Position numbers and translations under genes: made by a program. Shown here one piece after another: positions 4,854 to 27,121 of a stretch of DNA of 64,000 nt; position 1 is the stretch's first letter; the number at the start of each line of letters is the position of its first letter. Source of the stretch: Thermoplasmatales archaeon (GTDB lineage Archaea; Thermoplasmatota; Thermoplasmata; Thermoplasmatales; Thermoplasmataceae). The stretch spans positions 434,001 through 498,000 of the forward strand of contig CP060531.1 in NCBI GenBank assembly GCA_016806715.1, read 5' to 3'. The notes beneath the pieces are model-generated. The model did no database searches, was not told where the DNA came from, and saw only the letters and a list, made by a program, of their open reading frames with translations.

Positions 4854-6473
4854 ATGGCAGAAGAAATCATATCGGATACGATCCAGGATGCCCTTAACAG
4901 GAATCCGCATCTGGCTGATTACCTTCTCAATTACAGGCGAGCGACCGGGAGAACTCCGGAGTTTGTGCCAGTGCCGGATGGCAGTCTCAGGGGAAGGGCT
5001 TCTCTGGACGTCATATACCCCGTCGGAGATCCAATATTCATACATGCGGTCAAGGAGAAGAATGCAATCATGTACAAGCCCATAGAGCCTAACCTGACCC
5101 CGGAAGAACAGGTAATAATGGAAAAGGTTATGGCCATAATCCTTGAGCATGCTGCTGATTACCCTCCGCCCGAGAGTGCTGATGTTCTCGAGTCAAATAT
5201 TGATAAGATTTACGCTAAAATCGTCAGCGTAGGGTCTGTCAATAAGACAAAGGGGAACTCCGTTGTAGTGGTGAAAGGGCTGTACGAGAAGCTTCTGTAT
5301 AACATCAAGCGGGAAGTAATAGGGCTCGGGCCAATAGAGCCGCTCATACGGGATTCTCACATTGAAGATATAAGCTGTATCGGCGCAGATGGCGTTTACA
5401 TTGTCCATAAGATTTTTGGGTCCATAACCACGACCATTACATTCGGGGACAATAACAGGCTTATGCTTTTTGCCAAAAGGATAAGCGAGAGAGTTGGAAG
5501 GCCGGTGAGTGACAAGGTGCCAATAGTCGATGCAACACTGCCTGATGGATCCAGGTTATCAGTGGTATACAGCATGGATGTTTCAGCAAGGGGACCGAGC
5601 TTCACTATAAGGAAATTCTCCGATGTTCCCATAAGCATTGTCCAGCTGGTGCAGTTCAACACACTGAGTGCTGAAGAGGCTGCATATGTGTGGCTCGCCC
5701 TTGAATACGGGCAGAGCGTGTTCGTGTGCGGTGAAACTGCCAGCGGTAAAACTACAGTCGTTAATGCGATAATACCGTTCATAAGGCCTGAGCTCAAGGT
5801 TTTCAGTGCAGAGGATACCCCTGAAATAAGGGCGCCTCAGGAAGCATGGCAGCAGCTGGTAACCAGGGAGAGGGGAGCCGCGGACAGTAGGGTAAGCCTG
5901 TTTGACCTGCTCAGGACAGCACTGAGATCAAGACCCAACTACATCATAGTGGGAGAAATCAGGGGAGCGGAGGGATCCATGGCATTCCAGGCCATGCAGA
6001 CAGGTCACCCTGTAATATCCACTTTCCATGCCGCATCCGTAAGGAAGATGATACAGAGGTTCACGGGAGATCCAATTAACATACCCGTCACCTTCATGGA
6101 TAACCTGAACATAGCCATGATCCAGCAGGCCGTATATGTGAATGGAAAATTCCTGAGGCGTACAACAAGCATAAACGAGATCGAGGGATACTATGAAGAA
6201 CTTGGAGGTGTATCCACCAAGCAGGTTTTCCAGTGGGATCCAACAACGGACCAGCACACGTTCAGGGGAATGAATAACAGTTATGTACTGGAAAAGAGGA
6301 TTGCGGTTACAACTGGGCTGGAAGACCCGAAGATGATATACGATGAGCTGTTTAAGAGAGCCAGGATAATTGAGTACCTTGCGAAGAACAACATAAATTC
6401 CTACTTCCAGGTGTTTGACCTTATAAAGAAATTCTATCAGACCGGTGATATTGGATTGCCGGTATATGGGTGA
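4854..6473 (+). CDS. flaI: Archaellum motor ATPase FlaI
   Basis: A 539-residue type IV secretion/pilus assembly ATPase of the PilB/GspE superfamily. Walker A is GETASGKT at residues 293-300, followed by the Asp box (VFSAEDTPEIR) and the Walker B/His-box region (IIVGEIRGAE ... TGHPVISTFHA). FlaI powers both filament assembly and rotation by acting on FlaJ. The gene overlaps flaJ at the stop codon. Length and domain order are normal and no key residue is missing. Confidence 0.96.
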   Translation: MAEEIISDTIQDALNRNPHLADYLLNYRRATGRTPEFVPVPDGSLRGRASLDVIYPVGDPIFIHAVKEKNAIMYKPIEPNLTPEEQVIMEKVMAIILEHAADYPPPESADVLESNIDKIYAKIVSVGSVNKTKGNSVVVVKGLYEKLLYNIKREVIGLGPIEPLIRDSHIEDISCIGADGVYIVHKIFGSITTTITFGDNNRLMLFAKRISERVGRPVSDKVPIVDATLPDGSRLSVVYSMDVSARGPSFTIRKFSDVPISIVQLVQFNTLSAEEAAYVWLALEYGQSVFVCGETASGKTTVVNAIIPFIRPELKVFSAEDTPEIRAPQEAWQQLVTRERGAADSRVSLFDLLRTALRSRPNYIIVGEIRGAEGSMAFQAMQTGHPVISTFHAASVRKMIQRFTGDPINIPVTFMDNLNIAMIQQAVYVNGKFLRRTTSINEIEGYYEELGGVSTKQVFQWDPTTDQHTFRGMNNSYVLEKRIAVTTGLEDPKMIYDELFKRARIIEYLAKNNINSYFQVFDLIKKFYQTGDIGLPVYG

Positions 6474-6475
6474 TC

Positions 6476-8134
6476 ATGATGGATGAAGTAATCAGGCTGG
6501 GGAAATTCTCCAACATAGAGTTCAAGAAAAACGATGTTTTCATGATACTGGCAGCTTCGGCAATGGCCGGAGTATTCCTTGGCCTTTATCTCATTTTCAA
6601 CTCAATGCTTACTATTATCCTCACGATTGTAGCAATACTTGCCATGGTCGGCATGGTACTGAAACCCATAATAGACCGGGACGCAAAACGCGCTAACATA
6701 AATGCAAACATACCATTTTTCGTTACCTCGCTTGCAACCCTTTCAACTAGCGGTGCAAACAGGATTAGTGTACTTGATATCCTATCGAAGAAAGAGAAGA
6801 TCGGGATGATCAAAGACGACCTGACGAAAATCGTCAATCTTGTGATGAACTGGAAGAGGGGTTTGTCTGAAGCCGCTAACGTTGTTGCAAGGAAAACACC
6901 AAGCGACCTCTTTGCTGATTTCCTTGACAGGTTCGGCCAGGCTCTCGACAGCGGGCAGGATTTCATAGAGTTCGTCAATCTCGAAACAGACGCCGTAATG
7001 AGCAACTTTGAGACAGCCTACATATCGGCTCTGGCAACATTCGATATATACAAGGATATGTATGTCTCACTGCTCCTGGCTTTCGCCTTCCTGATAGCGT
7101 TCATACTGATCATGCCGGTGCTGATACCCATAAACATACTCCTTCTGCTTGCATTCAGCCTTATTACCGTTTCACTGGGAGAATTTATGCTCCTTTACGG
7201 CATAAAAATGGTGCTGCCAAACGACCCAATATGGCACGGAACAGGAATAAAGACCGAACTACAGAAAACAATGGAGAAGAGGTTCATCATAGCCGGAATT
7301 ATATCCGGCCTAATCCTCCTCGTTTTCCTGGTTACCAAGATCGCCTACATCATACCATTCTATTTCACGGCAACTTCCGTTGTAACGCCATTTGCCTGGC
7401 CAAGTATAGTGGGGTCCAGACTGGAAAAGACTATCGGGAAGAAGGACGACATGTTCGGAAGCTTCATGCGATCCCTTTCGGGATCGGCATCCGCCAGGGG
7501 AAACATGATCATAGACGCCATGAAATCCATGATAGTACATGACTTTGGGATGATGACCAAGGACGTGAAGAACCTGTACAAGCGTCTTGTGTACAGGATC
7601 GACAGCCTCATTGCGTGGAGGAACTTCAGCGCAGATACCGGTTCACATCTCATCGAACTGTTCACGGAGTCATTTGTGGAGAGCGTCGAACTTGGTGCAG
7701 AAGCATCCTCTGCAGGTAATATTGTCAGCACAAACGTTGACAAGATAACCAGGCTGAGAAGGAGGAGGAGGCTTTCAGTCAACACGTTCACCGGTGTAAT
7801 ATACGGAATAACTGGTGGGCTTGCATTCTCGCTTGCAATTTCATTTGGCATCCTGGAGATTATAGACAAGGTGTTCAAGCAGTTCGCGATCTCCGGACTT
7901 GCCACATACGGCATATTTTTCAGCCCGCCGGCAGCTACTATACTCAGCATCGAGATCTTCCTGTTTGCTATTCTTTTCATCCACGCGGCCATATCTGGCA
8001 TATCGATGAAAATAGCTGATGGAGGGAGAAAACTCCACGGGATACACCATATTGTCATAATGATGTGGATAATCTCCATAGTGGTTTACGGAACGCTCCT
8101 GATAACATCAACGCTTCTCGGTTCGTCTTTCTGA
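6476..8134 (+). CDS. flaJ: Archaellum membrane platform protein FlaJ
   Basis: A polytopic protein of about 552 residues related to PilC/GspF, with two copies of the T2SF-type cytoplasmic domain separated by clusters of membrane helices (around residues 25-65, 190-250, 265-305 and the C-terminal third). It anchors the motor ATPase in the membrane. Starts at GTG 6470, ATG 6476 and ATG 6479 are all possible; an ATG just after the flaI stop is preferred. The cytoplasmic stretch rich in arginine (TRLRRRRRLS, near residue 425) is expected to contact FlaI. It is the last recognisable archaellum gene of the operon. Confidence 0.93.
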   Translation: MMDEVIRLGKFSNIEFKKNDVFMILAASAMAGVFLGLYLIFNSMLTIILTIVAILAMVGMVLKPIIDRDAKRANINANIPFFVTSLATLSTSGANRISVLDILSKKEKIGMIKDDLTKIVNLVMNWKRGLSEAANVVARKTPSDLFADFLDRFGQALDSGQDFIEFVNLETDAVMSNFETAYISALATFDIYKDMYVSLLLAFAFLIAFILIMPVLIPINILLLLAFSLITVSLGEFMLLYGIKMVLPNDPIWHGTGIKTELQKTMEKRFIIAGIISGLILLVFLVTKIAYIIPFYFTATSVVTPFAWPSIVGSRLEKTIGKKDDMFGSFMRSLSGSASARGNMIIDAMKSMIVHDFGMMTKDVKNLYKRLVYRIDSLIAWRNFSADTGSHLIELFTESFVESVELGAEASSAGNIVSTNVDKITRLRRRRRLSVNTFTGVIYGITGGLAFSLAISFGILEIIDKVFKQFAISGLATYGIFFSPPAATILSIEIFLFAILFIHAAISGISMKIADGGRKLHGIHHIVIMMWIISIVVYGTLLITSTLLGSSF

Positions 8135-8173
8135 TCCGGGAAACAATTTATCCTGCAGATTAATGAAGGGTGG

Positions 8174-10156
8174 ATGTATGAATACAGCCCTTCGATTTCT
8201 GTGAATGACAGGCATTATACAATCGGTAAGGGATTGAACATAGGACATGCGGTGGGTGGGTCAGGAATCTTTCTGCCGCCAGAAGACCTTGCTGGGCATA
8301 TGCTGGTGACCGGAAAAACCGGATCCGGCAAATCGTCATTCGTGGGGATGGTCATGGAACAGTTATCTGAAAGGGAAGGTTGTAACATAATCCTGCTGGA
8401 CCCTCACGGGAAGCTAGCCGAGGATTTTGTGGTCGCGAATAGGTCAAAGGAACTGGTATACATTTCTCCCAGGATTGTTGAATCAGGAAAACTGCAGGTC
8501 GGCATACAGATGAACGGAATAATTCGAGGAGACGGGGACAACCCGGAGAACAGCCTCGGCTGGGTGAGGGAGTTATTCTCACATGAAACTGCGTTATCAA
8601 ATAACACATGGGGGCCAAGACTGGAGGTCATATTCCGTTCACTTCTTTCGGAGATGGTGAAGCAGAGACCCGATTCCAACCTTTCAGACCTGGCAGCAAT
8701 CCTTACCAATCAATCTGACCTGAGATCGCTTCTCAGACAATCCACCAATGTTGCGATCAGGGAATTCCTTGAGATGCAGATGAAGGACTGGAGAAACTGG
8801 AACCAGTATGTGTCAAGCGCCCTGAACAAGTTGCTTCCCATCATATCAAGCAGATCAGTTTCTACCCTTATATCGTCCAGGAAGGACTCTTTTGACTTGA
8901 AAGGATCAATAGAGAGCGGAAATCATGCATTTGTGATAGAGATTTCAAAAACCAGCATGCCGGAGGACACTTCCCGGATACTCACCTCGATATTCCTTCA
9001 ACGCTTCTGGTCAGAATACCTTTCCCTAGGTAAAAGCATTGAAACCTATGTCATTGTGGACGAGTGCCAGCTTGTGGAATCAAACCTTCTTGAAAGATTG
9101 CTCAGCGAAGGAAGAAAATATGGGCTCAAGCTGATACTGATAACCCAATCCATAGGCCTCCTGGGCAACTGGCGCCGCAATGCCATACTGTCAAACGTCA
9201 GGAATTTTACCTCTTTTCCAGTTTCGGACGAGGATGCGCAGGCTCTGTCAAGAACTATCAGTGTGGGACGGAGGGAGAAGGAATTTGTGAATGCATTGAA
9301 GAACCAGGAACTTCACAGGGCGATTATCTGGTCGCAAGGCGATGAGGGAATATCCGGTCCCCTTAGTTTCAGCCCGGTTCAGCTCCCGCAAAGTAATGAA
9401 CCCAAAAATTTCATCGAAATAGTTAATAGAAGCATACTGAAATTCGGCAGCCCTTTTATCAGCGAAAGACGTGTTGAGACTGAAACTGGCAGGCACAGCA
9501 GGTTAATTGGGATCATGGAGGCATACCTTTCAGGGAAAAAAATTCCTCTTATAGTAAACCAGAAGGTGAACGGCATGATTCCGGATGGTCTCTTAACTGT
9601 TAACGGTACAGAATATATACTGGAGGCAGAATGCTCGGATCTCGATAACTTTTACCGCATATTCAGGAAGATAAAGGCATACCAGAACAGGAAGGTAGTT
9701 TTCCTTACGTACGCTGAAGACGCTGACAGGCTCTTCCTGTTGCTGACGGGTGCGTTCAAGGTAATGATGAAGAGGTCAGCAGTCCTTGAAGTCCCAATCT
9801 ACAGGGAGAATGACACAATTTATTTCAGGGATATCAAGGATTATCTGGAGAGAACATTCATAATAGCAGTGGATCAGGAAGGCCCGAAGTTTTACGACGG
9901 CCTGAAGCTGAGGAGGTTCTTCGCTTCCAGCCTTTCCCGTCATGCCGGTTTAACTGGGATCTTTTCAAGGCTTGATTACGGGGAATTACGTGCCGCACTC
10001 TATAAATCAATAGTCCATACCGGTTATCCATACATAATGAAGAGTGATCTTGAGAAAATGACCCTGTTCGATCAGGTGAAGGTAACGGAGGCAGCGGAAA
10101 TGTTCGGTAAAAGGCCATTTATAATGCTTTCAGACCTATTCATAAAGGTTTCATGA
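8174..10156 (+). CDS. HerA/VirB4/TraG-like ATPase with C-terminal nuclease-like domain
   Basis: A 660-residue protein. The N-terminal 400 residues form a DNA-pump type P-loop ATPase. Walker A is GKTGSGKS at residues 46-53, LLDPHGKLAEDF follows, and the Walker B-like VDECQ is at about 295, then a sensor-like ITQS. These features match HerA/VirB4/TraG family proteins. The C-terminal region contains PDG at 470-472 and EAE at 484-486, spaced as PD-x(n)-ExE in restriction-endonuclease-like folds, although the usual lysine is replaced by E-x-E. It starts about 40 bases after flaJ, so it could be read through from the archaellum operon, but nothing shows an archaellum role. It could equally be a relic of a plasmid or conjugation-like system. 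Confidence 0.72.
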   Translation: MYEYSPSISVNDRHYTIGKGLNIGHAVGGSGIFLPPEDLAGHMLVTGKTGSGKSSFVGMVMEQLSEREGCNIILLDPHGKLAEDFVVANRSKELVYISPRIVESGKLQVGIQMNGIIRGDGDNPENSLGWVRELFSHETALSNNTWGPRLEVIFRSLLSEMVKQRPDSNLSDLAAILTNQSDLRSLLRQSTNVAIREFLEMQMKDWRNWNQYVSSALNKLLPIISSRSVSTLISSRKDSFDLKGSIESGNHAFVIEISKTSMPEDTSRILTSIFLQRFWSEYLSLGKSIETYVIVDECQLVESNLLERLLSEGRKYGLKLILITQSIGLLGNWRRNAILSNVRNFTSFPVSDEDAQALSRTISVGRREKEFVNALKNQELHRAIIWSQGDEGISGPLSFSPVQLPQSNEPKNFIEIVNRSILKFGSPFISERRVETETGRHSRLIGIMEAYLSGKKIPLIVNQKVNGMIPDGLLTVNGTEYILEAECSDLDNFYRIFRKIKAYQNRKVVFLTYAEDADRLFLLLTGAFKVMMKRSAVLEVPIYRENDTIYFRDIKDYLERTFIIAVDQEGPKFYDGLKLRRFFASSLSRHAGLTGIFSRLDYGELRAALYKSIVHTGYPYIMKSDLEKMTLFDQVKVTEAAEMFGKRPFIMLSDLFIKVS

Positions 10157-18331: not shown

Positions 18332-18862
18332 TCAAGTTTTCATTTTCTCAAGTTTTGACACTTTCTGCCTGATGCTTCTCTCGCAATTAGAGCAGCATGC
18401 GTAGTAAACGTGATTATTAAGTGTTACGCGGAGTGGAGAATCTCTTATGAGTTTTCCACAATAATCGCAGTGCACGTGAGACAATCTTATATTCGCGTCG
18501 AAAAATTTTCTCCTCTTGACTATCTCCAGATTCCTGATTTCCAGGTCGCCGATTTTTGGGATATCTTCATAGTGCATAACAGCCATGTGGCTTCCATCAA
18601 TGAGTTCGTAGTCCTCAAGGAGAAGATCTGCTGGCAGTTCAGAGTTTTTACTGAAGTGCACAATTGCCAGGTTTTCATCCTCGATCGAGAGCTTTAGAGT
18701 AAAGCCTGAAATTACTCCGGATGAGACAAGATCATCAATTCTGTGCTTGACAGTTATCCGGCTTATATTTAGTTCCCTGGCGATGTCAGAGAGAGGCATC
18801 CGGGAATTTCCCCTCAGGATAGATATTAGTCTCTGATCGAGTTCAGCCCTATCATTGATCAT
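18332..18862 (-). CDS. TRASH-domain copper-responsive transcription regulator (CopT/CopR type)
   Basis: A 176-residue protein with an N-terminal Lrp/AsnC-like helix-turn-helix (MPLSDIARELNISRITVKHR, about residues 22-41) and a C-terminal TRASH domain with paired cysteines (HCDYCGKL and YACCSNCE, about residues 130-165). Archaeal proteins with this architecture sense copper and control a linked copper ATPase and metallochaperone. Here it is divergent from exactly such a pair, and a palindrome lies in the shared upstream region. Whether it activates or represses cannot be seen. Confidence 0.88.
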   Translation of the reverse strand: MINDRAELDQRLISILRGNSRMPLSDIARELNISRITVKHRIDDLVSSGVISGFTLKLSIEDENLAIVHFSKNSELPADLLLEDYELIDGSHMAVMHYEDIPKIGDLEIRNLEIVKRRKFFDANIRLSHVHCDYCGKLIRDSPLRVTLNNHVYYACCSNCERSIRQKVSKLEKMKT

Positions 18863-18886
18863 GTTGTGATAATTTCATTGTTGTAT

Positions 18887-18901
18887 TTTACAATTTGTAA
18901 A
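18887..18901. promoter_or_regulatory. Candidate copper-regulator operator (palindrome)
   Basis: TTTACAA-T-TTGTAAA is a perfect inverted repeat with 7-bp arms in the 74-base region between the divergent regulator and YHS genes. Its symmetry and central location suggest a binding site for the TRASH regulator controlling both directions. Confidence 0.55.
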
Positions 18902-18936
18902 GAATCGTCTTTAATACATGTCTGTAATATACACCT

Positions 18937-19080
18937 ATGGCAAAAAATATTGATCCAGTTTGTGGAATGAAGGTATCGGACACCAGTGTTTCCAGCACGT
19001 ATAATGGAAAGACCTACTATTTCTGCTGTGACCACTGCAAACAGACATTTGACCAGAATCCAATCAAGTACACAAGGTAA
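18937..19080 (+). CDS. YHS/TRASH-type copper metallochaperone, 47 aa
   Basis: A 47-residue protein below usual length cut-offs. It begins MAKNIDPVCGMKV and contains YYFCCDHCKQTF, the paired-cysteine layout of YHS/TRASH metal-binding mini-domains. It directly precedes the copper ATPase (five bases apart) and resembles that ATPase's own N-terminal domain. By analogy with archaeal copT-M-A loci it should carry Cu(I) to the ATPase. The start ATG is preceded by a TAATAC/TAATATAC AT-rich element, consistent with a short or absent leader. Confidence 0.88.
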   Translation: MAKNIDPVCGMKVSDTSVSSTYNGKTYYFCCDHCKQTFDQNPIKYTR

Positions 19081-19085
19081 TATAG

Positions 19086-21170
19086 ATGCCTACAGACCCA
19101 GTATGCGGCATGTACGTTCCCGAAACAAGTAACATATATACTGTTGTTGACGGCGAGAAAATTTATTTCTGCTCCAAGTCATGCATGCAGGAATACACAT
19201 CCCCCGATGTCAGGGAAAGGAGCCTTAAATCAAGACTTGAGGTTGCGTGGGCGTTCGCGATACCTGTACTGATCCTTACATACTTCTTTCAGTTTCCATT
19301 CAAGGATTACGTGCTTCTTGCGCTTGCACTTCCAGTTCAGCTCTATTCAGGCTACGTATTCTACCAGGGCGCATACATGGCAGTAAAATCCCGTTCAGGT
19401 AACATGGATCTGCTTATCACTATCGGCACTGTAACTGCCTTTGTCTTTTCCATTTTCATCACACTGTTCCCCCGGGCCATAACATCGGCGGGTGTTTACT
19501 TTGATGCATCAGCATTCATAATCACCCTGATACTCACTGGAAACTATGTAGAGAACAGCACAAAGAAAAGGGCAAACAGGTCAGCCGCCCGGCTGGTTGA
19601 CATGATCCCGGCCACGAGCCATTTCATCAACAGTAGTGGCGATGTAACTGACAGGAGCACGTCCGAACTGTCTGCGGGAGACAGAATCCTGGTGAAGCCC
19701 GGGGAGTTGTTTCCATGTGACGGCAAGATATACGAGGGGCTTACAGAAGTGGATCAGTCTATACTGACTGGCGAGCAGGAACCGGTTACCCGAAGAGAGG
19801 GGGATGATGTGTACTCAGGCACGTCCAACCTCAACGGATCTGTGAAGGTCACGATTTCAAAGACCGGAAAGAATACAACCGTTGGCCAGATTTACGACAT
19901 GATAAGAAGGGCTGCAACCGGAAGGGCCAAGGTACAGAAAATAGCGGACAGGTTCTCTGCCATTTTTATACCTATTGTTCTGAGCGTAGCTTTCGCTTCA
20001 TCAATATTCTGGGTTCTTTTTCTTACTTATGTTGGAAGCCCATATGCCATCGAGATAGCAGTGCTGTCATTCGTTTCTGTTGTAGTGATAGCATGTCCCT
20101 GTGCAATCGGGCTTGCAGGTCCAATTACCATGCTTATATCGTCCAGCATCTCGTCGGAAAATGGCATTGTGATCAAGAACGCTGGCTCGCTTGACCGTCT
20201 GGCAAAAGCGACGAGGGTGGTGTTCGACAAAACCGGAACCCTTACTGAGAGCGAGCCGGAAATACTGTCCATATCCGTACAGGGAAGCATGAAAGAGGAA
20301 AGTCTGCTTGCAATGGCAGCTGCAATTGAGATGAATTCAAATCATCCTGTGGCTAAGGCCATTACCGTTGAGGCAAAACGCAGGAACCTGAATATACCTC
20401 CTGCTACTGGAATAATCGAAATTCCCGGAACCGGCATTGAAGGAAAGGCCGAAGGCAGAAAGATACGCCTTGAGAGGTCGTTCCAGCCTTCTGGATCTGC
20501 CGTAGATGTTTTCGTTGATGGCAATAATGTGGGGTCGATCCATCTTGGGTACAGGATACGCCATGGATCAAAGGAAGCAGTGGATCAGCTGAAATCAATT
20601 GGATTGTCGTTATCTGTACTTTCGGGTGATTCCGAGCCGGCTGTAGCAGACATAGCAGCGAAACTGGGCATAACAGACATACACGCAGGGGTCCTGCCAG
20701 GGAAGAAGGCAGAAGTCGTCAAACAGTTCCAGGCAGATGGGGACTATGTTATTTTCGTTGGAGATGGCATAAATGATACAGTAGCCCTGGAGACAGCAGA
20801 TGTTGGCATTGCAATGGGAAGCGGATCAGAAATTGCAAGGAACAGCGGTGATCTTATAATCCTGAGCAATGATCTTGGCAGCATACCAAAAGCAATTGTC
20901 ATAGCCGGTAAAACAGTTTCCAAGATCAGGCAGAACATCTTCTGGGCAATAAGTTACAACAGCGCATTGATACCAGTTGCTGCAGGAATACTTGTTCCTG
21001 TATTTGGCCTGACAATATATTCAATACTGCCAATGCTTGCTGCCCTGGCTATGGGATTTAGTTCCACCACGGTGGTAATGAATTCAATTCTCATGAAGGG
21101 AAGAACTCAGAAGGTGCTGAGGGGCATTGGGAATTCAGCCGTGGTCAAACAAGTTACCGGGGGCGCGTGA
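19086..21170 (+). CDS. copA: Copper-transporting P1B-type ATPase with N-terminal YHS domain
   Basis: A 694-residue P-type ATPase. It begins with a YHS metal-binding domain (DPVCGMYV ... YFCSKSCMQEY) in place of the usual heavy-metal-associated domain. Key motifs are the membrane metal site CPC at 337-339, the phosphorylation loop DKTGT from residue 381, the SNHP motif near 420 and GDGIND from 559. Helix 7 and 8 motifs (YNSALIPVAAG and MGFSSTTVVMNS) match the Cu(I) subgroup. It exports Cu(I) from the cytoplasm using ATP. Position after the YHS mini-protein and opposite the TRASH regulator confirms a copper-resistance operon. Confidence 0.95.
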   Translation: MPTDPVCGMYVPETSNIYTVVDGEKIYFCSKSCMQEYTSPDVRERSLKSRLEVAWAFAIPVLILTYFFQFPFKDYVLLALALPVQLYSGYVFYQGAYMAVKSRSGNMDLLITIGTVTAFVFSIFITLFPRAITSAGVYFDASAFIITLILTGNYVENSTKKRANRSAARLVDMIPATSHFINSSGDVTDRSTSELSAGDRILVKPGELFPCDGKIYEGLTEVDQSILTGEQEPVTRREGDDVYSGTSNLNGSVKVTISKTGKNTTVGQIYDMIRRAATGRAKVQKIADRFSAIFIPIVLSVAFASSIFWVLFLTYVGSPYAIEIAVLSFVSVVVIACPCAIGLAGPITMLISSSISSENGIVIKNAGSLDRLAKATRVVFDKTGTLTESEPEILSISVQGSMKEESLLAMAAAIEMNSNHPVAKAITVEAKRRNLNIPPATGIIEIPGTGIEGKAEGRKIRLERSFQPSGSAVDVFVDGNNVGSIHLGYRIRHGSKEAVDQLKSIGLSLSVLSGDSEPAVADIAAKLGITDIHAGVLPGKKAEVVKQFQADGDYVIFVGDGINDTVALETADVGIAMGSGSEIARNSGDLIILSNDLGSIPKAIVIAGKTVSKIRQNIFWAISYNSALIPVAAGILVPVFGLTIYSILPMLAALAMGFSSTTVVMNSILMKGRTQKVLRGIGNSAVVKQVTGGA

Positions 21171-21524: not shown

Positions 21525-21944
21525 TCAAATATTGCCCTTTTTCAACACTGCCCTCTGAAAGATAAGCGTTTGCCTGTATTTGCGTTCAGGGGTGACGGAG
21601 ATGTTATTTTTGAAGAACTGCATCTCGGTTTCCTTATTGCCGGCAAAACCAGCAACGTTAAAGGTCATTGATATAACATCCTTCCGCTGCGACATACCGG
21701 GCATTTCATCAAAAATTCCTGTTTTCCCATCCGGCATCTGTACCTCCGCATAACCAAAGGAAACAAGGTAAACAAATTCATCAGACCGGTACTCAACTGG
21801 AGAATCCTGGCTTACAGATGCATTGTGCCAGAGTATGTCAAGAACCTCGGTGTTATCGACCGGGACTTCACTTACTGCCCTGTCAAGTTCGTCTTTATGT
21901 TTCTCGTTTTTCAGCTTCTGTTCAATTTTCTCTATTTCTCCCAT
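21525..21944 (-). CDS. Hypothetical protein, 139 aa
   Basis: A 139-residue soluble protein with a charged, helical N-terminus (GEIEKIEQKLKNEKHKDELD) and a beta-rich remainder. Codon use looks normal for the region. No family is recognised. It converges with the preceding gene with nine bases between stops and is separated by about 110 bases from the next minus-strand gene. Confidence 0.6.
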   Translation of the reverse strand: MGEIEKIEQKLKNEKHKDELDRAVSEVPVDNTEVLDILWHNASVSQDSPVEYRSDEFVYLVSFGYAEVQMPDGKTGIFDEMPGMSQRKDVISMTFNVAGFAGNKETEMQFFKNNISVTPERKYRQTLIFQRAVLKKGNI

Positions 21945-22056: not shown

Positions 22057-22455
22057 TTATTGGCCTACAGTGGCTGCTGTGTTAACCATCTCTTTTGCAG
22101 CTTTTGTGTATCGCATTATCTTCATCATGGGACCTTCGAGCTTGAATTTTCCGGTAAGGATCCCCTGGATTGGGTCTATCTCTCTGTTTAACAGCTTGTT
22201 CCAGTTTGAATATTTTCCTATGTACTTGAATTCAGTTTTCGGCAGGTTATCAGCAGATGCTATGTACTTTGCCGAACGGCATTTCCCGTGATACAGGTCC
22301 AGGTAAATATACTCGTCGCTCGGGTGTGCCTCATCTTTCTGCACCACAAACATGATATCTCCCTCCCATGTCTTACCCGCGTCTTCGTAGGCTTTGCTTG
22401 CATTGAGCTTCTCCATGTACTCCTTGACCCACTCTTCACTCGGAAATTTTGCCAT
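22057..22455 (-). CDS. SCP2-like sterol/lipid-carrier domain protein
   Basis: A 132-residue single-domain protein. The layout FPSEEWVKEYMEKLNASKAY, then a beta-sheet core, then DPIQGILTGKFKLEGPMMKI, matches the SCP2 fold, whose terminal G-K-(L/I)-(K/R)-(L/V)-x-G motif is visible. SCP2 domains bind lipids or fatty acyl groups in a hydrophobic cavity; in archaea the ligand is unknown. It lies upstream of and divergent from the lipid-linked three-gene run at 22.8-26.5 kb, which makes a lipid role attractive but unproven. Confidence 0.72.
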   Translation of the reverse strand: MAKFPSEEWVKEYMEKLNASKAYEDAGKTWEGDIMFVVQKDEAHPSDEYIYLDLYHGKCRSAKYIASADNLPKTEFKYIGKYSNWNKLLNREIDPIQGILTGKFKLEGPMMKIMRYTKAAKEMVNTAATVGQ

Positions 22456-22805: not shown

Positions 22806-24314
22806 ATGCCTGCCGTCAGGGTTCTTTATGGAACTAGGGACAAATACGAAATTCATCCGGCAGCAGTTAGAGAGATAGAGTCATTTTTCGGGATTAGATG
22901 GTCCGATATACTTTGGGATGGAAAGGTTCAGGTACCGGATTTGCCACAGGATAAGAAACTCAAGGAAGATCTGTCCGGGATGCTGGATCCGGATAAAATA
23001 TCGCTGGACCCACAAAGCAGGCTGATTCATTCCTTTGGTTTATCTTCCAATGAGATCGCCGGACTTAAGGCTGGCAGATATCCTGAAATTGTCGACGCTG
23101 TCGTCGAGCCGGAAGCTAAAGACCTTCCCGGACTCATCGCCTTCCTGAAATCCAGGAAAATCCACTCCATAATCTACGGGGGCGGGACTTCCGTTAATGG
23201 GTCTTTGCTCTACAAGAGAAAAGGTTTGACAATAGCAATTTCCACAGATCGCCTGAAAGAATACAGGGTCGTTGACAATATTGCCATAGTGGGGTCAGGC
23301 TGGAAAGGCGGCGAACTCGAGAAGAAACTCAACGAATCAGGATTGACAGCGGGGCATTTCCCTGAATCAATGCTGGCCTCAACAGTTGGCGGTTGGGTAG
23401 CTACAAAAGCAGCCGGACAGGAATCAAACTATTATGGATCTATAGAAGACAGAACCATCGGAGCTGTTGTAGTGAGATCAGACGGTATTATAAGGGATAC
23501 AATCAGTCCAAGGGAATCATCCGGGATCATGGCAAAGGACATTGCTCTTGGTTCTGAGGGAAGGTACGGCGTGATAACAGAGGTTGCACTGAAGGTACAA
23601 TCCCTTCCCAAAAAAAGATTTTACAGGGCATTTATCCTGAGAGATTTTGAGTCAGGCATAGATTACATGAGAAAACTCCATGGCATTCCTGCAGTAGTGA
23701 GGCTTTCTGATGCAGAAGAAACTGGATTTTCCCTAAACAATACTGAGGAATCATTTGGCATCAGGTATGTGCGGAGCAGGATAAGGTCCATGGGTTTCGA
23801 GAAACCGTGCCTCATTATAATGATAGACAATGATCAGGACAGGATCGTCAAACCACCACGATCCATATCACTTGGAAGGTCACCTGCAGTGACCTGGGAG
23901 CGTGATAGATACGAAAGGCCGTATCTCGGAAACGAATTATGGAAGAGGGGAATCATTCCCGATACCCTTGAAACTTCAGCGATATGGGATAATATGGCTA
24001 CCCTCCACTCCACAACTTTATTGGAATTTGAAAGGATCAGGGAAGAGAGAGGGTTCAGGGGATTCATAATGTCCCACATTTCGCACGTATACGATCAGGG
24101 TGCATGCATATATTTCACATTTGCGATCATGTCAGGAAACGAGATCGAGGATCTGTCGGCAGTAAGAGAAGCTATCCTGAACAACTTCATTACTCAGGGG
24201 TCTCCCGTGACGCATCATCATGGCCCTGGAACGCTCATGCGGAAGTACGTGGAGAAGAACATGATCGCAATGCAAGCTTTACTGATGGACCCGATATTTT
24301 CGGAGGTTGAATAA
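22806..24314 (+). CDS. FAD-linked oxidase of the alkyl-dihydroxyacetonephosphate synthase type
   Basis: A 502-residue flavoprotein of the vanillyl-alcohol-oxidase/GlcD superfamily. The FAD PP-loop is seen as YGGGTSVNG (about residues 122-130) and the second cofactor region as PESMLASTVGGWVATKAAG (about 190-208). The C-terminal cap carries IPDTLETSAIW (about 383), SHVYDQGACIYFTF (about 423-436) and a THHHGPGT cluster (about 468-475). These are the hallmark motifs of alkylglycerone-phosphate synthase, the enzyme that swaps an acyl for an alkyl chain on DHAP to make an ether bond. The gene abuts the next one (stop TAA, then ATG) and heads a three-gene lipid-related operon. D-lactate/glycolate oxidase-like activity is the main alternative. 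Confidence 0.78.
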   Translation: MPAVRVLYGTRDKYEIHPAAVREIESFFGIRWSDILWDGKVQVPDLPQDKKLKEDLSGMLDPDKISLDPQSRLIHSFGLSSNEIAGLKAGRYPEIVDAVVEPEAKDLPGLIAFLKSRKIHSIIYGGGTSVNGSLLYKRKGLTIAISTDRLKEYRVVDNIAIVGSGWKGGELEKKLNESGLTAGHFPESMLASTVGGWVATKAAGQESNYYGSIEDRTIGAVVVRSDGIIRDTISPRESSGIMAKDIALGSEGRYGVITEVALKVQSLPKKRFYRAFILRDFESGIDYMRKLHGIPAVVRLSDAEETGFSLNNTEESFGIRYVRSRIRSMGFEKPCLIIMIDNDQDRIVKPPRSISLGRSPAVTWERDRYERPYLGNELWKRGIIPDTLETSAIWDNMATLHSTTLLEFERIREERGFRGFIMSHISHVYDQGACIYFTFAIMSGNEIEDLSAVREAILNNFITQGSPVTHHHGPGTLMRKYVEKNMIAMQALLMDPIFSEVE

Positions 24315-25652
24315 ATGAAGGAATTCTCATTCAGGACAAGGGAAAAAGAGATATCAGAGCTAGATGGAAAGCATTTCCAGGTTGCAATAATAGGCGGTGG
24401 AATTACCGGGGCGGGACTGGCAAATATTATGGCAGAGAATGGTGTCAGCACTGTTCTATTTGACAAGTCAGATTTCTGTGCAGGCACCAGCGCAGGCTCA
24501 TCAAAACTGATCCACGGAGGTCTGCGGTACCTTCAGCAGGGAAAGATCCGCCTGACACGGGAGTTGCTCAAGGAGCGGGAATACCTTCTCAAGACAACGG
24601 ACATTGTAAAAAAGCTGGATTTCAAGGTCATCATTGACGATTACTCCTGGGGGAAAGGGGAACTTACGTTTGGCATATTCCTTTACAATGTTCTTGCTGG
24701 TCACCTGAAGGTGCAGAGAATGGTGAAAGACAATCTCGGCATCCCCGGAGTGAAAGGTTACTTTCCGTATTATGATGCTGTCACAGAGGACACAGAGCTT
24801 GTGATGTATAACATAGCTTACGCTTCTCAACTTGGTGCAACATGCCTTAACTATACAGAGATAACTTCCATATCAAAGCCCGACAAAAATTATGCGCTGG
24901 AATATATCGACAGGCACGGAAAGAAGACAGGCAAGGTTTCAGCCGAGATTGTGGTCAACTGCGGCGGACCATGGGCTAAGAGGGTAAGGGAACTTTACGA
25001 TCGGAATAGCCCGGGAAACCTGAGTTTGAGCAAGGGAATACACATAATTCTAGACAAAAAGGTGATCGGCATAAATTATGCAATAGCGTTCAGATCACAC
25101 ATTGACAAGAGGCAGCTCTTCATCATCCCAAGGGATAAGGTTACGATTATAGGCACAACGGACAAATTCATCGATTCTCCAGACGATTTCTCGGTTCCTG
25201 AAGAAGATATAAATTATCTGATTGATAGCGTCAAACGGCTCTTTCCCACAGTAAGCAGGGATAAGGTTATAGGGTCGTTTGCGGGCATAAGGCCGCTTTT
25301 CGGCAGCGGAGATGACCCGGGAAAGATATCAAGAGATTTCCACATAGAACGAGATAATGGATTAATAGACATATACGGCGGGAAGCTCACCAGCTACAGG
25401 GCAATTGCCAGGAAAGTTGCCAGGATGATTGCTCCAGAATTAAAGATAAATATTAGGACAAAAGGTCTTCCTGTTATAGATTATAAGCGTCCTAAAGGCG
25501 AGGATCGTATTAGTTTTGAAGCCATGTATGAATGCCCCCTGTATCCGGAAGACATAAAGCTAAGGAGGGAAGCTGCACAGATATACGATCCCATGGGGCA
25601 GGAAAAGGTAGAGAAGGACGCGGAGACTGTGCTGAAGTCCATGGAAAAGTAA
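24315..25652 (+). CDS. glpD: FAD-dependent glycerol-3-phosphate dehydrogenase
   Basis: A 445-residue protein with the dinucleotide-binding GGGITGAG at residues 28-35, GTSAGSSKLIHGGLRYLQ (about 58-75), which is diagnostic for GlpA/GlpD, and a C-terminal YGGKLTSYRAIA motif around residue 355. It oxidises sn-glycerol-3-phosphate to DHAP, passing electrons to quinone at the membrane surface. The C-terminal helical domain is shorter than in bacterial GlpD. It starts directly after the alkyl-DHAP-synthase-like gene and precedes a lipid kinase, so it probably feeds or drains a common G3P/DHAP pool. Confidence 0.9.
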   Translation: MKEFSFRTREKEISELDGKHFQVAIIGGGITGAGLANIMAENGVSTVLFDKSDFCAGTSAGSSKLIHGGLRYLQQGKIRLTRELLKEREYLLKTTDIVKKLDFKVIIDDYSWGKGELTFGIFLYNVLAGHLKVQRMVKDNLGIPGVKGYFPYYDAVTEDTELVMYNIAYASQLGATCLNYTEITSISKPDKNYALEYIDRHGKKTGKVSAEIVVNCGGPWAKRVRELYDRNSPGNLSLSKGIHIILDKKVIGINYAIAFRSHIDKRQLFIIPRDKVTIIGTTDKFIDSPDDFSVPEEDINYLIDSVKRLFPTVSRDKVIGSFAGIRPLFGSGDDPGKISRDFHIERDNGLIDIYGGKLTSYRAIARKVARMIAPELKINIRTKGLPVIDYKRPKGEDRISFEAMYECPLYPEDIKLRREAAQIYDPMGQEKVEKDAETVLKSMEK

Positions 25653-25653
25653 C

Positions 25654-26520
25654 ATGAAGATAGGTCTGATAGTCAATCCAATAGCTGGCGGAGGAAAGGC
25701 TGTAAACAGCATTCCGCAGATTCAGGAAAAACTCGGTGACATTACAGAGCTTGTAATTACCGGAAAGAGGGGGGAAGCTGAAAGCAACGCAAGGAAGTTT
25801 TCCCAAGATAGATTTGATATGGTAGCTGTTGCTGGTGGAGACGGAACCCTCAACGAGGCCGCCCAGGCTCTCACCGGTACTGATACTGCAATGATCCCCC
25901 TTGCTTTCGGCAACGGATCGGACTTCATCAAAAGCGTCGGAAATATAGAGATCGCAGAACTTCCTGAAGCAGTGAAGGCAGCTAAAACAAGAAAAATAGA
26001 CACAGTGCTGGTAGAACTCGGCCAGGATAAGTTTCATTTCATAAACATCATGGAACTGGGCTTTGGCGCTCTTGTGATGAAACGTTTCAACGAGAGACGC
26101 AGGTACTCCGGGGACACATCATTTACAAGACAGATTCTCAGGGAAGCGTTGAGACTCAGGCAATTCCCGATGGAAATGGTTTCCGATACATTCTCGTATT
26201 CCGGCAATCTCATAGAGGGAATTTTTGCCAACGGGAAATATTTCGGGAGAGGACTGCTCGCTGCACCCGGGGCAAGCATTGACGACGGCTTGATGGAAAT
26301 TCACCTGATCGAGGGTATGGGCAAGGCGGAATTCTTGATGAAATTGCGCAAGATTAAAAACGGAAGTTATACCACTGAACCCAAGGTAAAAAACTACACC
26401 GCAAAAAATATCGAAGTCAGTACTGCAGGGATACCATGTGAAGTTGATGGAGAATTCATGGGATACACTCCCCTGAGAGCAAGGGTTGAGCCGCGGTCTC
26501 TGAAAATCCTTCAGGTGTGA
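25654..26520 (+). CDS. Diacylglycerol kinase/YegS-family lipid kinase
   Basis: A 288-residue protein beginning KIGLIVNPIAGGGKAV and carrying the nucleotide-binding GGDGTLNEAAQ from residue 61, the signature of the DAGK catalytic domain. The C-terminal beta-sandwich includes GGRGLLAAPGAS-like and CEVDGEFMG motifs typical of the family. Members phosphorylate lipids such as diacylglycerol, sphingosine or, in archaea, possibly ether-lipid alcohols or inorganic NAD substrates (ATP-NAD kinase relatives). It follows glpD by one base. The lipid context favours lipid phosphorylation. Confidence 0.85.
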   Translation: MKIGLIVNPIAGGGKAVNSIPQIQEKLGDITELVITGKRGEAESNARKFSQDRFDMVAVAGGDGTLNEAAQALTGTDTAMIPLAFGNGSDFIKSVGNIEIAELPEAVKAAKTRKIDTVLVELGQDKFHFINIMELGFGALVMKRFNERRRYSGDTSFTRQILREALRLRQFPMEMVSDTFSYSGNLIEGIFANGKYFGRGLLAAPGASIDDGLMEIHLIEGMGKAEFLMKLRKIKNGSYTTEPKVKNYTAKNIEVSTAGIPCEVDGEFMGYTPLRARVEPRSLKILQV

Positions 26521-26659: not shown

Positions 26660-27121
26660 ATGCAGCCCAGAAATAAAGCTCTATTCATTGATAGGGACGG
26701 AACAATCAACATGGACTGTCCATATTGCTATAAGCCAGAGGATCTCAAGATTTTTGATGATGCAGTAAGATTGATGAAAGAATGGCAGGATAAGGGCTAT
26801 CTAATAATCATAGTTACAAATCAGTCTGGGATTAGCAGGAAATATTTTACTGTTCAGCAGATGGACGCATTCAACAACGCATTATTGCTGAAATTGAGAA
26901 AATCTGGAGTTTTTGTCAATGCTATATACTACTGCCCTCATCTTCCCGAGGACAACTGCAGTTGCAGGAAACCAAAGGACGGGATGGTTCGTCAGGCAGT
27001 GGATGATTTCAACATTGACCTAAACCAATCCATAATCATTGGAGACAGGGACGATATTGAAGGCGTTATGGCAAGAAGCCTGGGCATTCCATATCGCATT
27101 ATTGCTCACCAGCCACTATGA
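26660..27121 (+). CDS. gmhB: D-glycero-D-manno-heptose-1,7-bisphosphate phosphatase (HAD family)
   Basis: A 153-residue HAD-superfamily phosphatase. The nucleophile motif DRDGT is at residues 12-16, TNQSG near 53 is motif II, and GDRDDIEG near 134 is motif III/IV. The zinc-knuckle region CPHLPEDNCSCRKP (about 93-106) is specific for the GmhB/HisB-N group. GmhB removes the 1- or 7-phosphate from heptose bisphosphate. It is the first recognised gene of the glycan island; other heptose enzymes (gmhA, hddA, nucleotidyltransferase) lie up to 21 kb away. A HisB-like phosphatase role is less likely given this context. Confidence 0.85.
   Translation: MQPRNKALFIDRDGTINMDCPYCYKPEDLKIFDDAVRLMKEWQDKGYLIIIVTNQSGISRKYFTVQQMDAFNNALLLKLRKSGVFVNAIYYCPHLPEDNCSCRKPKDGMVRQAVDDFNIDLNQSIIIGDRDDIEGVMARSLGIPYRIIAHQPL

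Follow-up and report, generated by a model that had tools for sequence, protein, structure and literature searches.

What purpose is served by adjoining genes for an alkylglycerone-phosphate synthase (AGPS)-like flavoprotein, a GlpD-like dehydrogenase and a lipid kinase in an acid-loving archaeon? AGPS is known as an ether-forming enzyme, and to our knowledge few enzymes are known for taking ether lipids apart. One report describes alkylglycerol monooxygenase (AGMO) as the sole enzyme known for alkylglycerol breakdown (PMC7911779), and archaeal ether-lipid turnover is poorly known (PMC12718374). The genes lie in a 64,000-nucleotide stretch of a Thermoplasmatales genome (the window; contig CP060531.1, positions 434,001 to 498,000), and the initial annotation proposed for them either an extra ether-lipid pathway or the catabolism of glycerol ethers.

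Layout of the Locus

The three ORFs, all on the + strand, encode an AGPS-family FAD protein of 502 aa (22806..24314; FAD_binding_4 and FAD-oxidase_C domains), a GlpD-like FAD glycerol-phosphate dehydrogenase of 445 aa (24315..25652; DAO domain) and a YegS/BmrU/DAGK-type lipid kinase of 288 aa (25654..26520; DAGK_cat and YegS_C domains). The gaps between them are 0 and 1 base, in agreement with the 0–2 bases initially annotated. The SCP2 lipid carrier annotated nearby was likewise confirmed (22057..22455, − strand; 132 aa; Pfam SCP2 9.6e-09), though its gene is divergent, 350 bases upstream of the trio and outside the trio transcript; it may carry a hydrophobic substrate or alcohol. A HAD-IIIA/GmhB-like phosphatase gene (26660..27121, + strand) begins 139 bases downstream, adjoins the trio only within the same genus and is probably outside the pathway. 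No structured RNA was found in the window.

The Flavoprotein Belongs to the AGPS Family by Sequence, Tree and Predicted Fold

In a phmmer search of the flavoprotein against the PDB, the Dictyostelium (E 2.8e-55) and guinea-pig (1.7e-44) AGPS were its closest matches, while glycolate/lactate dehydrogenases scored weakly (about 1e-10 to 1e-9). A tree rooted with a GlcD-like outgroup joined it to AGPS with 100/100 support, and the best Foldseek match of its AF2 model (pLDDT 87.6) was the AGPS structure 4bby (E 2.3e-40, TM 0.87). Judged by these sequence, tree and model comparisons, the flavoprotein is an AGPS-family member as initially annotated, and its identity as a glycolate/lactate dehydrogenase is ruled out. 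In free trees it stood separate from the eukaryotic AGPS clade; as the AU test left a joining of both unrejected (p 0.57), the clean split at which the tree hinted is not claimed.

The active-site Tyr and His, singled out for checking by the initial annotation, are both kept in the alignment. Tyr436 (codon 24111..24113, + strand) corresponds to Dictyostelium Tyr508 and guinea-pig Tyr578, the active-site base of AGPS (PMC3509576), and His470–472 (24213..24221, +) to the conserved HHH of AGPS. Dictyostelium Arg352 and Arg447 also have catalytic roles (PMC3509576). By alignment mapping the former is kept as Arg299 (23700..23702, +), as in nearly all alignment rows, and the latter is replaced by Gly375 (23928..23930, +). 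A new arginine, Arg371 (23916..23918, +), is placed one helical turn ahead of the lost one, residues 359–380 forming a single helix in the AF2 model. The Arg447 equivalent is missing, with Arg371 present in its stead, from every Thermoplasmatales relative examined, and a motif of the type RPxx[GAYS]N occurs in all rows of this clade vs. (P/A)xxR[DEN] in nearly all others. Because the catalytic Arg447 is replaced throughout the clade, AGPS chemistry itself is not assured for the flavoprotein.

The GlpD-Like Dehydrogenase and the Lipid Kinase

By phmmer against the PDB, the GlpD-like protein matched the GlpDs 3da1 (3e-57) and, from E. coli, 2qcu (1.1e-46), and it keeps the active-site segments GGLRYL, IRPL, ISRD and GGKLTSYR. 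It scored below the NCBIfam cut-offs, and Pfam matched DAO only, with no match to DAO_C. The kinase matched Pfam DAGK_cat (1.5e-17) and YegS_C (4.6e-28), and its PDB relatives are DgkB/YegS.

The Trio Recurs With Alcohol-Oxidizing and Decarboxylating Partners

Among relatives, the AGPS-like gene was found ≤10 kb from a GlpD-like gene in 24 genomes and from a kinase gene in 26; in several of these, AGPS identity is as low as about 30–35%. Such retention indicates that the trio arrangement is not due to chance. Recurrent partners of the trio in Thermoplasmatales are SCP2, an Fe-alcohol dehydrogenase (FeADH), an aldehyde-oxidizing enzyme, a 2-hydroxyacid dehydrogenase/decarboxylase (HADH–TPP) pair and a phospholipase-C-like enzyme (PLC). 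AGPS–SCP2 linkage was found in 16 genomes and AGPS–FeADH linkage in 11. The SCP2 homologue directly adjoins FeADH in all 14 genomes having both within 10 kb; FeADH and aldehyde dehydrogenase (ALDH) are adjacent in 9/9, and aldehyde:ferredoxin oxidoreductase (AFOR) lies near FeADH in 3 genomes. HADH and TPP genes are adjacent in 20/21; in 13 of 22 genomes they lie ≤10 kb from a further gene of the pathway, vs. about 1.7 expected. These linkages persist in rearranged genomes, and nearly the whole gene set lies within one locus in two of them (G136 and G016).

Over 25 good genomes, co-occurrence with AGPS gave p values of 3e-4 (GlpD), 4e-5 (FeADH), 0.009 (TPP) and 0.002 (PLC), the thresholds having been chosen after the scores were seen and the related genomes not being independent. 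In the same 25 genomes, the GlpD type of the trio and a true glycerol kinase (GlpK) were nearly exclusive (3 with both, 13 with GlpD only, 9 with GlpK only; p 1e-4).

The window's own genome was searched family by family. HADH, TPP decarboxylase, FeADH and ALDH genes lie together at C1:1268787-1276850, acyl-CoA dehydrogenases are present (6 matches), and the genome carries a glycerol kinase; no P450 was found in it, P450s being patchy in relatives, and no phospholipase-C-like gene in its genus. PhyH was found in none of the 41 genomes. PF01553 acyltransferases, the one acyltransferase family searched, were found in 0/41 genomes, with a positive control in 10; acyl-DHAP, from which ethers are usually synthesized, is therefore probably lacking.

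A Proposed Route for Ether-Lipid Breakdown

On balance, we somewhat favor a reading in which the operon encodes the central part of a pathway for ether-lipid breakdown, which would comprise kinase, GlpD-like oxidation, AGPS-like cleavage and alcohol oxidation. The sequences show which genes are present, to which families they belong and that they are repeatedly linked; we infer the substrates, direction and order as follows. The polar head would be removed by the phospholipase-C-like enzyme encoded next door in relatives, and the DAGK-type kinase would phosphorylate the alkylglycerol, a glycerol monoether, that is left. The GlpD-like FAD enzyme would then oxidize C2 of the alkylglycerol phosphate to give alkyl-DHAP, which is achiral, so that one same compound would arise from G1P- or G3P-type ethers. 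The AGPS-like enzyme would act on it in a reverse or hydrolytic sense: Tyr436 would remove a C1 proton, the FAD N5 would form a DHAP adduct with departure of the long-chain alcohol, and DHAP (or acyl-DHAP) would be set free by water (or a carboxylate). The alcohol would be brought by SCP2 to the Fe-dependent alcohol dehydrogenase, and ALDH or AFOR would make the acid. Finally, the 2-hydroxyacid dehydrogenase and the benzoylformate-decarboxylase-like TPP enzyme may remove one carbon from beta-methyl-branched (phytanyl-type) acids, and this shortening would precede beta-oxidation.

This shortening is the weakest step, as its 2-hydroxylation is without a known enzyme: the relatives have no PhyH, and the window's genome lacks a P450. 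The route also cannot remove the second chain at sn-2 of archaeal diethers. In the window's genome, GlpD could serve glycerol, since a glycerol kinase is present and the genus is without the phospholipase-C-like gene. The full version of the proposal, in which an AGPS has turned alkyl-DHAP cleaver, perhaps via the one-turn shift of its catalytic Arg, followed by CoA-independent alpha-oxidation of the branched chain, and by which glycerol ether lipids including archaeal ones are cleaved, is put forward only tentatively. Our literature search for ether cleavage by, or reversal of, an AGPS found no report.

Thermoplasmatales of acid mine drainage (AMD) have been proposed to feed on the lipids of lysed cells (PMC3750248). 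The same study proposed a methanol-oxidation role for a dehydrogenase of AMD relatives, possibly another gene; for FeADH this role is disfavored by the constant adjacency of SCP2.

Alternative Explanations

The trio could instead make G3P/DHAP-based alkyl ethers like peroxisomal AGPS, with GlpD supplying DHAP and the kinase phosphorylating alkylglycerol. Membership in the AGPS family and the kept Tyr and HHH agree with this, and the authors of the GliR study suggested a glycerol to alkylglycerone phosphate route for a related Pseudomonas operon (PMC8151288). We nevertheless regard biosynthesis as improbable: PF01553 is absent from the 41 genomes (this family only), the partner genes oxidize alcohols and aldehydes instead of making alcohols, and GlpD-made DHAP would be superfluous, as a cell with glycolysis needs no GlpD to obtain it. 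Of the two possibilities initially annotated, the catabolic one is thus favored over G3P-ether synthesis, since PF01553 is lacking and the trio is accompanied by genes for alcohol and aldehyde oxidation and for decarboxylation.

Plain glycerol or glycerophosphodiester catabolism, which the initial annotation held would refute its reading, would have GlpD oxidize ordinary G3P, the AGPS-like protein being an accessory flavoprotein for another small substrate. The GlpD segments binding glycerol phosphate are kept, a glycerol kinase is encoded in the own genome, and in family f12 a distant AGPS-like protein has as neighbors an Fe-S (CCG) protein, a GlpA-like enzyme and an FGGY kinase. Across relatives, however, this explanation is disfavored by the near-exclusive distribution of GlpD and GlpK; G016 has, besides its AGPS-linked GlpD, a second homologue (28% identical) near its GlpK, and the lipid kinase and SCP2 would be left without a role. 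We therefore consider it unlikely. Still less likely, in our judgment, is oxidative ether cleavage, by which the flavoprotein would oxidize the chain carbon beside the ether oxygen and the hemiacetal would yield an aldehyde and glycerol phosphate, the latter used by GlpD. VAO-type flavoproteins are mostly oxidases, the clade has lost the catalytic Arg447, and the ALDH/AFOR neighbors deal with aldehydes; yet an aldehyde product would need no FeADH, which SCP2 adjoins in 14/14 genomes, and the flavoprotein retains the Tyr and HHH that belong to the non-redox AGPS mechanism.

If true, the reversed AGPS route would be a genetically simple answer to how acidophilic archaea turn over ether lipids, and would point to a role for the widespread, unassigned bacterial AGPS–GlpD–kinase loci. 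The enzymes recovered for LUCA in one study include alkyl-DHAP synthase, listed there under ether/ester-lipid synthesis (PMC11383801); were the archaeal members catabolic, their presence would say little on lipid synthesis in LUCA.

Comparison With Known Systems

The window protein resembles AGPS/ADPS (EC 2.5.1.26) in fold and in the Tyr508/578, HHH and Arg352 equivalents, and differs in the replaced Arg447 with an Arg one turn upstream, in its catabolic partner genes and in a genome without PF01553 acyltransferase. The archaeal oddity implied by the initial annotation is overstated: many bacteria carry the same trio. In P. aeruginosa, the regulator GliR jointly switches on an FAD oxidoreductase, a GlpD homologue, a YegS lipid kinase and the phospholipase PlcA, and deletion of the operon left growth on glycerol unaffected (PMC8151288), which speaks for the breakdown reading. 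That regulon (PA3026–PA3023 and PlcA) matches the archaeal set in oxidoreductase (PA3026, likened by description), GlpD homologue, YegS-type kinase and phospholipase C; it is bacterial, has an additional FGGY kinase and an AraC-type regulator, and SCP2/FeADH/TPP partners are not reported in the part available (PMC8151288). Mycobacterial and other actinobacterial AGPS–GlpD–DAG kinase loci cluster the same three families, but their GlpD is divergent, DAO_C is present and Arg447 is canonical; one such kinase, Rv2252, has been described as a diacylglycerol kinase serving phospholipid synthesis (PMC3229680). Aerobic GlpD shares the DAO domain and active-site segments with the window's GlpD-like protein, which differs in being without DAO_C, below NCBIfam cut-offs and, across relatives, uncoupled from glycerol kinase. 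AGMO would likewise serve ether-lipid breakdown, but by another protein family and another chemistry.

The flavoprotein and its operon

Genes for an alkylglycerone-phosphate synthase (AGPS)-like flavoprotein (22806–24314), a GlpD-like dehydrogenase (24315–25652) and a YegS/DAGK-type kinase (25654–26520) were found in tight succession, separated by 0 and 1 base, and a gene for the lipid carrier SCP2 (22057–22455) lies divergent to them, confirming the arrangement proposed in the initial annotation; the source assembly is a single 1.96 Mb contig, of which the window covers G000:C1:434001-498000. A 139-aa protein without Pfam match (21525–21944), kept in the same genus (loci L032 and L034), is encoded beside SCP2. 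The window also holds an AsnC-type regulator with an archaeal TRASH metal-binding domain, encoded divergently to a P-type ATPase (18332–21170), the pair probably serving copper or heavy-metal export; consecutive T2SSE ATPase, T2SSF membrane protein and TrwB/HerA-like ATPase genes (4854–10153), which are pilus or secretion-like; and a surface-polysaccharide or glycosylation region (27246–63485) with a long series of glycosyltransferases, DUF2079 membrane proteins and epimerases, plus GHMP kinase, nucleotidyltransferase, UDP-sugar dehydrogenase and FkbM methyltransferases.

Whether the flavoprotein is AGPS-like or a glycolate/lactate-type enzyme was evaluated by sequence, rooted tree and model, all of which placed it on the AGPS side. 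Among solved structures, AGPS matched best (2.8e-55 and 1.7e-44), whereas glycolate/lactate enzymes reached about 1e-10 to 1e-9. With GlcD-like paralogues as outgroup, the window protein and all AGPS-like rows fell on one side (100/100), with a tool warning that long rows of the Thermoplasmata family f12 may fall falsely on the outgroup side. The AlphaFold2 model (pLDDT 87.6) matched guinea-pig AGPS best (E 2.3e-40, TM 0.87), and the best 37 matches were all AGPS chains, lactate dehydrogenase appearing only after these. In a 121-row tree, 29 Thermoplasmatales-clade rows formed one clade (SH-aLRT 100) on a long stem, other Thermoplasmata lay near actinobacterial proteins linked to GlpD/kinase, and eukaryotic AGPS clustered with bacterial proteins without GlpD neighbours; holding the Thermoplasmatales clade together with the eukaryotic group was not rejected (AU p 0.57).

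Tyr508, Arg352 and Arg447 are important in Dictyostelium AGPS (PMC3509576). By alignment, with a construct-to-native numbering offset of 3 inferred from Tyr508, the first two correspond to Tyr436 and Arg299; both residues and the HHH motif (470–472) are kept, while Arg447 is replaced by Gly375. Among 133 related rows (some sharing a genome), the window and two eukaryotic AGPS, this column is Arg in bacterial and eukaryotic rows and in three deeper families of Thermoplasmata (f15, f25 and f27), while every Thermoplasmatales-clade row has G, A, Y or S with an Arg four residues before, and f12 rows have neither. Since residues 359–380 form a single helix in the model, the new Arg would lie one turn off on about the same face, and it may substitute functionally for Arg447. 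The f12 loci (L153:7665-15153 and L154:841-8278) are a different glycerol-phosphate-type cluster, in which a distant AGPS-like protein lies beside a CCG iron-sulphur protein, a GlpA-like FAD enzyme with BFD-like domain, a second FAD oxidoreductase, DUF1667 and an FGGY kinase.

Partner genes of the AGPS-like gene

Near the AGPS gene in 20 relatives were found the kinase (16), SCP2 (13), GlpD (12), an Fe-alcohol dehydrogenase (FeADH, 9), a pair of 2-hydroxyacid dehydrogenase (HADH) and TPP decarboxylase (5–6), aldehyde dehydrogenase (ALDH, 4) and a phospholipase-C-like phosphoesterase (PLC, 4). In an enlarged region set, AGPS was linked within ≤10 kb to GlpD in 24 genomes, the kinase in 26, SCP2 in 16 and FeADH in 11, where counts for the gene by which a region was picked are not independent evidence, while linkage to other genes is. 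In this set SCP2 directly adjoined FeADH (14/14), FeADH adjoined ALDH (9/9), with aldehyde:ferredoxin oxidoreductase near FeADH instead in 3, and HADH adjoined TPP decarboxylase (20/21). Of 22 genomes, 13 had the HADH–TPP pair close to a further gene of the pathway, versus ~1.7 expected by chance (by genus 8/14, p 3e-6). The nearest relatives are benzoylformate decarboxylases for the TPP enzyme, phosphoglycerate/2-hydroxyacid dehydrogenases for HADH, and AdhE-type and other iron-type alcohol dehydrogenases for FeADH. In the window's own genome, HADH, TPP, FeADH and ALDH are clustered 0.8 Mb from the operon. Three extra genes (349, 269 and 191 aa) lie between FeADH and TPP decarboxylase in this genus (L137:7643-10371; G000:C1 about 1271642-1274370), which may resemble the AmmeMemoRadiSam trio.

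Across 25 genomes of ≥90% completeness, genomes with versus without AGPS held GlpD in 14/15 vs. 2/10 (p 3e-4), FeADH in 15/15 vs. 2/10 (p 4e-5), TPP in 13/15 vs. 3/10 (p 0.009) and PLC in 13/15 vs. 2/10 (p 0.002), while true glycerol kinase (GlpK) showed the opposite trend (4/15 vs. 8/10, p 0.015) and occurred together with trio-type GlpD in only 3 genomes (p 1e-4), the own genome being one of them; these p-values are indicative, because score thresholds were set after the lists were seen and the genomes are related. No PLC-like gene was found in the window's genus.

Direction of the predicted pathway

The initial annotation left open an extra glycerolipid or ether-lipid pathway or glycerol-ether catabolism. 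Ether synthesis by AGPS requires acyl-DHAP. PF01553 acyltransferases were absent from 41/41 genomes, with positive controls, which disfavours synthesis. The recurrent partners are alcohol- and aldehyde-oxidising enzymes; acyl-CoA dehydrogenases occur as well, with 6 matches in the own genome, but not in family f5 genomes, which are also without AGPS. Acid-mine-drainage Thermoplasmatales were proposed to use lysed-cell lipids (PMC3750248). Taken together, these points favour ether-lipid breakdown as the predicted direction.

In such a breakdown route, the kinase would act first, the GlpD-like enzyme would then oxidise C2, the AGPS-like enzyme would cleave the ether and the freed alcohol would be oxidised. 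The ping-pong mechanism of AGPS, via a flavin–DHAP intermediate, makes a reversal chemically reasonable; our literature search found no report of such a reversal. For diethers, the sn-2 chain would need another enzyme. An alpha-oxidation branch is a guess, as no 2-hydroxylase was identified; it is suggested by the linkage of the genes and by the beta-methyl group that phytanyl chains carry.

Parallel in bacteria

Among the best 80 AGPS-like loci in other genomes, a GlpD-like gene lay within ≤8 kb in 42 and a kinase-like gene in 28, rough counts given contig ends and high-GC ORF calling. Pseudomonas aeruginosa GliR co-activates the phospholipase PlcA and PA3026–PA3023, encoding an FAD oxidoreductase, a GlpD homologue, an FGGY kinase and a YegS lipid kinase, and deletion of PA3026–PA3024 left growth on glycerol unchanged (PMC8151288). 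The GliR regulon differs from the window trio by the FGGY kinase within PA3026–PA3023, but resembles some of the Thermoplasmatales loci in combining an FAD oxidoreductase, a GlpD homologue, a YegS lipid kinase and a phospholipase.
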